From an uncultured Pelagibacteraceae bacterium (lineage in GTDB: Bacteria > Pseudomonadota > Alphaproteobacteria > Pelagibacterales > Pelagibacteraceae), in assembly GCA_902605035.1 (NCBI GenBank), contig CACLBB010000011.1:1-35612 (forward strand): DNA of 35,612 nt, in the 5' to 3' direction. The notes below the pieces were generated by a model. That model was not told the DNA's origin, ran no database searches, and was given only the letters and a program-made list of their open reading frames with translations. Below, one piece after another: positions 5,886 to 27,923 of the stretch (position 1 is the stretch's first letter; the number at the start of each line of letters is the position of its first letter). The translations under genes were made by a program, and so were the position numbers.

Positions 5886-5901
5886 ACAAAATTTAAGACT
5901 G

Positions 5902-5940
5902 AATTTTACTGTAATGTTAAAATTTGCAGTAAAATTTTTT
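5902..5940 (+). terminator. Hairpin with T-run between rplL and rpoB (probable attenuator)
   Basis: A perfect 10-bp inverted repeat, AATTTTACTG (5902-5911) and CAGTAAAATT (5927-5936), with a 15-base loop is followed by four more T (5937-5940). rpoB starts 8 bases later. The shape is that of a weak, AT-rich intrinsic terminator. Partial termination in the rplL-rpoB gap is known in E. coli, where it lowers rpoBC expression relative to ribosomal proteins. A similar role here is inference. Confidence 0.6.
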
Positions 5941-5947
5941 ATTATTA

Positions 5948-13000: not shown

Positions 13001-14228
13001 TGGAAGACAACTTGCTATTTATAAAGTTAATTATGGTTCAAAATTATTTTTTAAAGATGGTGATACGGTAGAAAAAGGAAAAAAAATTGCTGAATGGGAT
13101 CCTTACACTTTACCAGTTATTGCTGAAACGTCTGGAATAGTTAATTATATGGATTTGACAGAAGGAACATCTTTAACCGAAACTTTAGACGATGCTACGG
13201 GATTATCCTCAAAATCAGTCACAGATTGGAAATCTCTATCTAAAAATTCTGAATTAAAGCCTAGAATTACATTAAGGAATGATAAAGGTGAAATTATTAA
13301 AAAAGCAGACGGAAACGAAGCTCGTTATTATTTAGTTCCTGATACAATTTTATCAGTTAAAGATGGGCAAAAAATTTCTGCAGGCGATGTGTTAGCTCGT
13401 TTACCTAAAGAAACTTCAAAAACAAAAGATATTACTGGGGGTCTACCACGTGTAGCTGAATTGTTTGAAGCCAGAAAACCAAAAGATAGTGCTATAATAG
13501 CTGAGAATGATGGAGTTATAGAATTTGGTAAAGAAGTGAGAGGAAAACAGAAAATTTCTATAGTAGCAACAAACGGTGAAACTTCAAATTATTTAATACC
13601 TAAAGGCAAACATGTTAACTTTAATCAAGGTGAAAAAATAAAAAAAGGGGAATATCTATTAGATGGTAGTCCAGCGCCCCATGATATTTTGAGAATACTT
13701 GGTGTAGAAAAATTAACAGAGTATTTCGTTAGTGAAGTACAAGAAGTTTATCGTCTTCAAGGAGTTGTTATTAATGATAAACATATAGAAACTATCGTTA
13801 GACAAATGTTAAAGAGAGTAGAGATTAAAGATCCAGGTGATTCTGGTTTGCTTGTAGGAGAAGTTATAGACTTACTGGAAATTAACAAAATAAACGACAA
13901 ATTGAAAGAAGAGAAAAAGAAACCAGCCTTGTTTGAAAGAGTTTTATTAGGTATTACGAAAGCTTCTTTACAAACTAATTCATTTATTTCAGCTGCCTCA
14001 TTTCAGGAAACTACGAGGGTGTTAACAGACGCATCTATAAAAGGCAAAACTGACACATTAGAAGGACTAAAAGAAAACGTGATAGTTGGAAGATTGGTAC
14101 CTGCGGGAACTGGTCTTACCAAAATTGATTGGGATAAGCAGGCTAAAGAACAAGATAAATCAAGGCTTGAAGAATTAAAAAAACAAGAGCTAGAAAACTC
14201 AACTACTACACCAGAACAGACAGCTTAA
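10041..14228 (+). CDS. rpoC: DNA-directed RNA polymerase subunit beta'
   Basis: Full-length, 1395 residues. The N-terminal zinc site is complete (Cys73, 75, 88, 91 in CLCG...CEKCG). The catalytic Mg2+ loop NADFDGDQ is at 462-469 (Asp464, 466, 468). The trigger-loop/bridge region is present ([18 protein letters not shown] type; here [18 protein letters not shown]). The second zinc site is unusual: by motif alignment the family's four cysteines correspond to Cys812, Cys888, Cys895 and Ser898, so the last ligand is serine, while an extra Cys814 is found in the CDC sequence. The tail is Lys/Glu/Gln-rich. It is translationally close to rpoB (one-base gap). Confidence 0.98.
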
Positions 14229-14253
14229 ATTACAATATAATAACCATTAAATA

Positions 14254-14281
14254 TTGACTTTTATCGTTTCGATGCTAGTTT
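14254..14281 (+). promoter_or_regulatory. Candidate promoter for the str-S10-spc cluster
   Basis: TTGACT (14254-14259), a 16-base spacer and TAGTTT (14276-14281) preceded by TGC, giving an extended -10 form (TGCTAGTTT). The -35 is close to consensus, the -10 weak. It lies in the 149-base gap between rpoC and rpsL, the largest gap in the window, and would give a leader of roughly 90 bases. The TTGACTTT sequence and 16-base spacing recur before rpsM. Confidence 0.45.
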
Positions 14282-14301
14282 ACGGCACATTTTGAATGTT
14301 A

Positions 14302-14366
14302 GAAGTAAGGCAATCAATAGTCTTAAACACTAACTAAAATATATCAGACTACCTTTCTTTTACTTC
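14302..14366 (+). promoter_or_regulatory. Foldable leader before rpsL (possible ribosomal-protein leader)
   Basis: Two nested inverted repeats sit just before the gene: an outer 7-bp GAAGTAA (14302-14308) with TTACTTC (14360-14366), and an inner 6-bp TAGTCT (14318-14323) with AGACTA (14346-14351). An internal loop separates the two stems. The end of the outer stem is 11 bases from the rpsL ATG, so folding could affect ribosome access. No T-run follows, so it is not an intrinsic terminator. Pairing was found by eye, and no energy or covariation was computed. Confidence 0.38.
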
Positions 14367-14377
14367 AAAATATTATT

Positions 14378-14749
14378 ATGCCGACTATTAATCAGTTGAT
14401 AAAAAAAGGTAGGGTAAAACCAATTGCACGAAATAAAGTTCCAGCTTTGGAACGCCAACCTTTGAAAAGAGGTGTATGTGTAAAAGTTTATACAACTACT
14501 CCCAAAAAACCTAATTCAGCTTTAAGAAAAGTGGCTAGGGTTAGACTATCAAATGGTTTTGAAGTAACAGCCTACATTCCTGGCGAGGGTCATAACTTGC
14601 AAGAACACTCAGTTGTTTTGCTCAGAGGTGGTCGTGTTAAAGATTTACCAGGAGTTCGATATCATATTTTAAGAGGTAATCTAGATACCCAAGGTGTTGC
14701 GAACCGAAAACAAAGAAGATCCTTGTACGGGGCAAAAAAACCAAAATAA
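14378..14749 (+). CDS. rpsL: 30S ribosomal protein S12 (uS12)
   Basis: A 123-residue protein at the decoding centre, first gene of the cluster. The family core is clear: [59 protein letters not shown]. The lysines at the streptomycin-sensitive positions (in PKKPNS and GRVKDLPG) are retained, the wild-type state. The ATG at 14378 has no Shine-Dalgarno and follows AATATTATT. rpsG starts 4 bases after the stop. Confidence 0.97.
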
Positions 14750-23720: not shown

Positions 23721-24119
23721 ATGACATTAACAGATCCAATAGGAGATATGTTTTCAAGAATTAGAAATGGTCAAATGAGATCACTTAATTCTATAGAAAT
23801 ACCTTCATCAAATTTTAGAAAAAACATATTAAAAATACTTAAAGATGAAGGTTATATTAAAGATTTTTATATTGAGAAATCAGAAAATAATAAGACAAAT
23901 TTGAAGATTAATCTTAAATATTATGAGGGCGATCCTGTAATAAAAGAAATTAAGAGAATTTCTAAACCTGGTAGAAGAGTTTATTCAAGAGCTAATAGTA
24001 TACCTAGAGTAATGAACGGTTTAGGTTTAGCCATTCTATCTACACCAAAAGGAGTGATGAGTGATACTGAAGCAAGAAAAAATAATGTTGGTGGGGAAAT
24101 AATTTGTAGGATATTTTAA
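23721..24119 (+). CDS. rpsH: 30S ribosomal protein S8 (uS8)
   Basis: A 132-residue central-domain 16S rRNA-binding protein. It begins MTLTDPIGDMFSRIRNGQ and has KRISKPGRRVYSRANSIPRV and the end GLAILSTPKGVMSDTEARKNNVGGEIIC. GGAG 7 bases before the ATG is one of the clearest ribosome binding sites in the window. In E. coli S8 regulates the spc operon by binding within the rplX-rplE mRNA region; whether it does so here cannot be told by eye. TAATG overlap with rplF. Confidence 0.96.
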   Translation: MTLTDPIGDMFSRIRNGQMRSLNSIEIPSSNFRKNILKILKDEGYIKDFYIEKSENNKTNLKINLKYYEGDPVIKEIKRISKPGRRVYSRANSIPRVMNGLGLAILSTPKGVMSDTEARKNNVGGEIICRIF

Positions 24120-25015: not shown

Positions 25016-25531
25016 ATGTCAGATAATAGAAAAGTTGAAAGTGATATAAAAGAAAAGCTAGTTGCCATTAATAGAATTACGAAAGTTGTTAAAGGAGGAA
25101 GAAGATTTGGATTTGCAGCTTTGGTTGTTGTTGGTAATCAGAAAGGTTCAGTTGGAATAGGTCAAGGAAAATCAAAACAAGTTCCGGATGCTATTAAAAA
25201 GGCAACAGAAGTTGCAAAACGGAACTTAATTCAAATTCCCTTAAAAGAAGGGAGAACCTTACATCATGATGTTAAAGGCAAAAATGGTTCTGGGAAAGTT
25301 TTTATGAGAGCCGCACCTGCAGGTACAGGCATCATAGCTGGGGGTGCAATACGTTCAGTTTGTGAAGTTTTAGGAATACAAGATGTAGTCGCAAAATCTT
25401 TGGGATCAGCTAATCCACATAATGTTCTAAAAGCTTGTGTAAATGGTCTTAGATCACAAAATTCACCAAAAATTTTATCTGCAATCAGAGGAAAAAAAAT
25501 TTCTGATATTGTTCAAAAAAGAGAATCATAA
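25016..25531 (+). CDS. rpsE: 30S ribosomal protein S5 (uS5)
   Basis: A 171-residue protein at the mRNA entrance, important for accuracy. It has the dsRNA-binding fold start ([25 protein letters not shown]), [23 protein letters not shown] and the second domain [23 protein letters not shown]. rplO begins 2 bases after its stop: rpmD (L30), which usually sits between them, is absent. Confidence 0.96.
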
Positions 25532-27863: not shown

Positions 27864-27865
27864 AG

Positions 27866-27893
27866 TTGACTTTAAATAATTAGGCAATATAAA
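27866..27893 (+). promoter_or_regulatory. Sigma70-like promoter of the rpsM-rpsK-rpoA-rplQ operon
   Basis: TTGACT (27866-27871), 16-base spacer, TATAAA (27888-27893): five of six matches in each hexamer. It starts 3 bases after the adk stop and would begin transcription around 27900, leaving a leader of only about 25 bases before rpsM. The 60-base gap has no evident hairpin, so an S4-binding pseudoknot like that of E. coli would have to use rpsM coding sequence. This is the best promoter match I found in the window. Confidence 0.62.
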
Positions 27894-27923
27894 TACGCAT
27901 TTGAAACTTTAACTCAATTTAAT

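Follow-up and report, generated by a model that had tools for sequence, protein, structure and literature searches.

SAR11 bacteria count among the most numerous cells of the ocean. The locus described here is the gap of 149 nucleotides that one such genome keeps between rpoC and rpsL. Within the stretch of DNA analyzed (35,612 nucleotides of an uncultured Pelagibacteraceae bacterium, referred to as the window), this gap, which separates the rpoC stop at 14228 from the rpsL ATG at 14378, is the longest of the 48 spacers in a gene list made here, the runners-up measuring 97, 62, 61, and 60 nucleotides. The initial annotation of the window had singled out the gap on the ground that nearly all spacers are shorter than 15 bases; short spacers do predominate, but their share is three quarters (36 of 48). 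A leader that binds a ribosomal protein had been suggested, and as a kind of element this is well supported by the comparison given below, the binding itself being putative. Judged by its sequence and that of its relatives, the gap holds a real, conserved, and functional-looking regulatory RNA leader. The genes that border the gap or bear on its proposed function are the following:

14228, forward strand: end of rpoC, the upstream border of the gap
14378 to 14749, forward strand: rpsL (S12; TIGR00981), the first gene that the leader would control
23721 to 24119, forward strand: rpsH (S8; NF001109), coding for the proposed ligand and located in the same closely packed run

NCBIfam names in the window include rpoC, rpsL, rpsG, EF-G, L5, and S8, and the short spacers suggest that rpsH is co-transcribed with the run. 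The next longest spacers within the ribosomal run are the 62 nucleotides before rpoB (5886-5947) and the 60 nucleotides before rpsM (27864-27923).

Leaders of relatives, promoter, and start region

The corresponding gaps were gathered from related genomes. The rpsL gene was located in 45 of 61 relatives, in 118 of the 169 genomes that represent g1 (the window's genus), and in 16 of 26 hand-picked further genomes of the order, many of these genomes being incomplete. Together with 30 loci of genus g6, additional fetched stretches, and one named locus, these yielded 179 parsed leaders. The g6 leaders are a biased sample because they were drawn from the best matches to the Rfam model RF01823, and misaligned f2 and g3 rows in the leader alignment (A1) were left uncounted. 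The gap measures 141 to 179 nucleotides in g1 (median 151) and 129 to 192 nucleotides in the other groups. Its pairings covary among the relatives, and close relatives keep both the gap length and the paired bases, the opposite of the result that the initial annotation had named as refuting its idea. The case for a leader rests on these relatives because the fold computed from the window is just mildly better than that of shuffled sequences (z -1.62, with 12 of 200 shuffles at least as good) and a generic promoter scan of the window is silent here.

14254 to 14281, forward strand: promoter, recognized by conservation, with TTGACT (14254-14259), a 16-nucleotide spacer, and TAGTTT (14276-14281) preceded by TGC

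The two promoter-like words of the initial annotation, TTGACT at 14254-14259 and TGCTAGTTT at 14273-14281, are indeed found where it had placed them. As the generic scan gives no call, the support for this promoter is its conservation among leaders: the pattern TTGACN-16-NANNNT occurs with constant spacing in 172 of 177 leaders of the order and in 115 of 115 leaders of g1, and the five leaders that lack it are those of g5 and g8. Transcription is predicted to begin near 14287-14289, where the left arm of the helix P1a (described below) lies, and the leader would thus form the 5' part of the rpsL mRNA, roughly 90 bases long, under a promoter of its own within the gap. In the commonest forms of g1 and f2, the -10 element is followed by a G+C-rich word, either CGGCA or GCGCA. 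The window carries CGGCA (GCGCA in relatives) in the interval 14282-14288, downstream of the -10 element and ahead of the predicted start, although the genome is A+T-rich; elsewhere, G+C-rich discriminators mark promoters that are controlled by ppGpp. A Shine-Dalgarno-like word was found within the last 20 nucleotides before rpsL in 18 of 18 f2 leaders and in none of the f1 leaders, which leaves 14360-14377 of the window without one.

An order-wide hairpin and its likeness to the S8 site

Two elements had been overlooked in the initial annotation, namely a helix that closes the leader (P1a) and a hairpin at 14298-14334 that can be written as GTTAG-aaG-TAAGGC...GTCTTA-AACa-CTAAC and is called fold A in the following.

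14289 to 14371, forward strand: P1a helix, found by repeat search and in relatives, with ATTTTGAA (14289-14296) pairing with TTCAAAAT (14364-14371)
14298 to 14334, forward strand: fold A, with the lower helix PA (GTTAG 14298-14302, CTAAC 14330-14334) and the upper helix P2 (TAAGGC 14306-14311, GTCTTA 14320-14325)
14303 to 14329, forward strand: internal loop like that of the S8 site, from the comparison with helix 21, with A14303, A14304, and G14305 on the 5' side and A14326, A14327, C14328, and A14329 on the 3' side

The right arm of P1a ends 6 nucleotides before the rpsL ATG. Its arms differ together between several genera, and the helix is weak or missing in others, including f2. Fold A has the same layout of lower helix, internal loop, and upper helix across the order. 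A script that demanded G-U before P2 and T-A-A-A-C after P2 recovered the hairpin in 177 of 179 leaders, and the remaining two, which had been clipped during parsing, were recognized by eye. One uncultured Pelagibacteraceae genome (L189) carries the same hairpin as the window. The lower helix PA reads GTTAG/CTAAC in most of g1, GTTAA/TTAAC in g9, GGTAG/CTACC in g5 and g8, GGTTG/CGACC in part of g6, and, within f2, AGAAG/CTTCT in genus g3 and AGTAG/CTACT in genus g2.

Covariation was scored on 41 hairpins that were chosen for variety from 108 distinct ones. In this set 94.2% of the cells pair, and the covariation score is 0.273, compared to 0.140 after shuffling (0 of 500 shuffles reached the observed value) and at most 0.099 when slid. 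Two weaker measures are the both-sided changes, seen in 7 of 13 pairs and equalled in 11 of 500 shuffles, and the pair types, equalled in 37 of 500. For 12 g6-type hairpins, 92.9% of the cells pair and the score is 0.155 compared to 0.091 (0 of 500), with both-sided changes in 2 of 13 pairs (equalled by 86 of 500 shuffles) and one PA pair mismatched in 10 of the 12. A covariance model matches the window leader at 14295-14337 with 57.7 bits. The model built from the 41 hairpins finds one site each in 33 of the 247 genomes of the order and misses the g6 and f2 leaders; four matches in genomes outside the building set were retrieved, and each of them lies directly before rpsL. The most conserved bases of the leader are those of the internal loop and not those of the helices.

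In 16S rRNA, protein S8 binds helix 21 where an internal loop of seven bases interrupts the helix; the site features the pair G597-C643 with base 641, the invariant A642, and the base triple A595-(A596-U644), and the spc mRNA carries the same element (PMC4176348). The loop of the window (AAG/AACA) and that of helix 21 in the 16S rRNA of the same genome (AAG/AACU) are equal at six of seven bases. With its strands equivalent to 16S positions 595-597 and 641-644, closed by 598-640, the window loop shares the 3+4 arrangement of seven bases (loops of other clades are longer), the G597-C643 pair, the unpaired invariant A642, and the U598-A640 closing pair, which is U14306-A14325 in the leader. The GU and AAAC of this signature are present in 177 of 179 leaders according to the script and in the other two by eye. 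Base 641 is, by identity, A in the leaders and in nine scanned 16S rRNAs and U in the 16S rRNA of E. coli. Unlike in helix 21, positions 596 and 644 are A-A in the window and form no pair in most clades, the A595-(A596-U644) triple is not kept, the 5' side of the loop varies from 2 to 4 nucleotides between clades, and the helices of the leader are without sequence similarity to those of the rRNA. Because the 596-644 pair is absent, the leader is not filed as a member of the S8-site class; it appears to resemble the S8 site in its working, and binding of S8 is a prediction.

A descriptor of the S8 site that asks for at least 5 pairs per side has a single match on both strands of the window, which is the leader, and with at least 4 pairs per side there is a second match at 25151. 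In 690 kb of loci from the order (both strands, related sequences), 117 matches fall on leaders versus 9 elsewhere; there are 5 matches in 247 kb of outgroup loci, and 11 of 20,000 shuffled versions of the leader (dinucleotide shuffling) match as well. One of the outgroup matches lies 96 nucleotides before rpsL in the alphaproteobacterium UBA7314 (L188), with an S8-like loop between helices of 8 and 7 base pairs. It may be due to chance or be a second case of an S8-like rpsL leader; as 5 matches in 247 kb are about what chance would give, no conclusion is built on it.

As this descriptor was written with knowledge of the S8 site, a second scan used only what the leaders themselves show (GU, AAAC, spacings in the loop of 2-4 and 1-2, at least 4 pairs on each side, and an end loop free to about 60 nucleotides, which is longer than the leaders' own) and was applied to nine full-length 16S and four 23S rRNAs (24.3 kb). 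It matches helix 21 in 9 of 9 full-length 16S rRNAs, and the extra matches consist of an overlapping register shift in one 16S rRNA and one other site in two of the four 23S rRNAs. A strict 2/1 loop spacing misses helix 21 of g9 (L267), which the relaxed spacing finds. The covariance model of the leader hairpin (R1) does not single out helix 21 when run on 16S loci, and this result is counted against strict homology.

The missing 596-644 pair would also fit a partner other than S8. The leader may be a structured autoregulatory element whose ligand is a different protein of the run (S7, S12, L4, or yet another), in which case its likeness to helix 21 would be coincidental. Candidates are plentiful, since many proteins are encoded in the run; the E. 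coli str operon is under the control of S7 (PMC2704228, PMC10931766), and the partner of rpsL leaders has been discussed as S7 or as a varying one (PMC2965389). On the other hand, the scan built from leader features singles out helix 21 in the 16S and 23S rRNAs, with hardly any other site, and the accessible text of Meyer et al. reports no resemblance to the S7 or L4 motifs (PMC2704228). We consider a partner other than S8 unlikely, yet far from negligible.

A competing fold and the proposed control by S8

14301 to 14366, forward strand: fold B, in which about 14301-14310 pairs with 14352-14366, plus helix P3 (TAGTCT 14318-14323, AGACTA 14346-14351)

The initial annotation had drawn the leader from two nested inverted repeats, an outer one (GAAGTAA 14302-14308, TTACTTC 14360-14366), which ends 11 nucleotides before the ATG, and an inner one (TAGTCT 14318-14323, AGACTA 14346-14351). 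Both are present and both belong to fold B, but the more widely kept fold A competes with the structure that they form. The inner repeat coevolves, and the outer repeat is a piece of a longer, partly kept pairing. In g1, P3 is a helix of the AACCT/AGGTT type that includes TAGTCT/AGACTA, and because it takes up bases of P2, folds A and B exclude each other. Fold B can moreover use the 5' strand of the S8-like loop, pairing it with a pyrimidine-rich strand that immediately precedes P1a's right arm.

When fold A is penalized, the loop-strand pairing of fold B is predicted in 114 of 115 g1 leaders and P3 in 87 of them. The computed energies favor fold B in 81 of the 115 and fold A in 33, with a mean difference of 1.25 kcal/mol and the two within 5 kcal/mol of each other in 102; for the window, the energies are -15.2 kcal/mol (fold B) and -11.3 kcal/mol (fold A). 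When the arms of P3 were swapped among 114 distinct g1 leaders, a set that kept two mis-registered rows, the pairing score was 11.86 with the own arm compared to 10.46 with a foreign arm (z 7.7, 0 of 5000 permutations, for sequences that are related and not independent). Shuffling of the 3' segment raised the mean energy of fold B from -17.0 to -12.0, and in 105 of 113 leaders the own segment is lower in energy than the mean of its shuffles. Compared to 3' segments exchanged between leaders, the own segment altered the energy of fold B by a mean of -0.63 kcal/mol and was better in 60 of 113. Because this exchange changed the energy of fold B little, the coevolution of fold B rests on P3. In family f2, fold B seemed present by eye but is lost in several leaders and was rejected there; g5 and g7 show hints of it. 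The leaders of a subgroup of g1 (L024, L025, L138, L141, and L149) carry an extra strong hairpin of the ACCTTGA...TCAAGG type after the core, at the place where others have P3.

The gain in stability from the own 3' segment, together with the observation that hairpin B begins at the predicted transcript end, could also be read as a structured 5' end that binds no protein and protects the mRNA or fixes the state of the start region. The highest conservation is, however, located in the internal loop, as would be expected for a recognition site, and two mutually exclusive folds are kept, so that we regard a ligand-free structure as quite improbable. Mutually exclusive folds would also fit a transcription attenuator, in which they decide on early termination, and rpsL leaders of the terminator type have been predicted in other bacteria (PMC2965389). 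Against this stands the lack of any terminator-like site (a G+C-rich stem with a T run) on the forward strand at 14229-14377, and according to the accessible text of the same 2010 study, the Pelagibacter element fails its terminator criteria (PMC2965389). Attenuation is hardly credible for this leader.

The comparison of leaders thus shows, at the level of sequence, a promoter, fold A with its loop, and, in g1, fold B. The best explanation for them, which we hold to be reasonably probable, is an S8-sensing leader with two states. Such a leader would head the rpsL-to-secY run, transcribed from the promoter in the gap, and fold A would be the mRNA counterpart of helix 21, where S8 primarily binds, with the greater part of its core copied. 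Once the 16S sites are full, S8 in excess of 30S assembly would bind fold A and lower the expression of the run, either because initiation beside the P1a helix is blocked or because the mRNA decays faster. Fold B, by competing with fold A, would make the leader a poorer target, such that 16S rRNA would be served before the mRNA. The sign of this control is an inference, and repression through stabilization of fold A is not obvious because it is fold B that covers more of the stretch before the start codon.

If S8 is indeed sensed in this way, a single site would govern a large share of ribosomal protein synthesis in a streamlined genome, and the likeness to helix 21 suggests a way in which SAR11 bacteria may keep their largest cluster of ribosomal genes in balance. 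With a candidate ligand and individual bases named, the question of the partner of the rpsL leader becomes testable.

Comparison with known leaders of ribosomal genes

Terminator-type rpsL leaders share with the window leader the gene that they precede and the presence of alternative folds, and they differ in that the window leader has no terminator (PMC2965389). The accessible text of that study finds no common sequence feature between them and the Pelagibacter element.

In E. coli, S8 represses at rplE by blocking initiation and destabilizing the mRNA, and an E. coli-like case is found in V. cholerae (PMC10931766). The leader described here would do the job of this site. As in the E. coli spc operator, whose loop (AAG/AACU) was recovered by a permuted descriptor, the S8 gene lies inside the run that would be controlled. 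The E. coli operator has a permuted strand order and is located at the third gene, whereas the window leader keeps the strand order of 16S rRNA and heads the run. A conserved spc-type site at rplE was not found with the permuted descriptor across 14 loci of the order, and weak matches near rplE occur in 4 of the 14, at -122 (two loci, the window included), +13, and +119. The wider proposal, that an S8-sensing leader heads a fused str-S10-spc run throughout the order, replaces the rplE operator, and is two-state in g1, is made tentatively, with our doubts slightly outweighing our confidence.

The closest known element is the rpsL motif (Rfam RF01823, where it is spelt rspL), which was described in 'Ca. 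Pelagibacter ubique' by Meyer et al. in 2009 and, in the accessible text, is reported only from this organism and marine metagenomes (PMC2704228). It was drawn with a bulged P1 and a three-stem junction, was thought likely to regulate ribosomal genes, and showed no resemblance to the S7, S8, or L4 motifs; its binding partner could not be predicted (PMC2704228). An assignment of S8 to the motif was not found in the literature covered (the accessible parts of PMC2704228 and PMC7247131, with few subscription papers). New here are the hairpin that runs through the order, its resemblance to the S8 site, and the competing fold in g1.

Comparison with the Rfam leader families, as the initial annotation had advised, brought out an agreement with RF01823 in both place and core. 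At gathering cut-offs, Rfam reports nothing but four tRNAs in the window; in a permissive search, RF01823 matches the leader over its full length at 14280-14374 with 21.1 bits (E 0.31), under its curated cut-off of 37 bits. Among 247 genomes of the order, 136 carry a match above that cut-off, compared to none of 142 drawn from the class, and no genome of g1 exceeds it in the search of the 247. In most g6 leaders (L031-L060), a perfect AAATAAC/GTTATTT hairpin follows the core at a place where the Rfam model draws other pairs, and in L053 an extra A and T keep this hairpin paired.

The window leader and RF01823 have in common the location between rpoC and rpsL, the outer P1 helix, and the covarying hairpin P2 followed by a conserved AAC. 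They differ in that the P3 stem of RF01823 is not matched, its 3' strand aligning to gaps in the window, and in that the place of the motif's inner P1 and P3 is taken by the lower helix PA together with the S8-like reading; the competing fold B in the window's genus is a further difference. By these comparisons, the window leader is a diverged form of the rpsL motif that lies beyond the reach of the Rfam model. If the reading proposed here is true, S8 would be the missing ligand of RF01823, and the drawn structure of the family would change.
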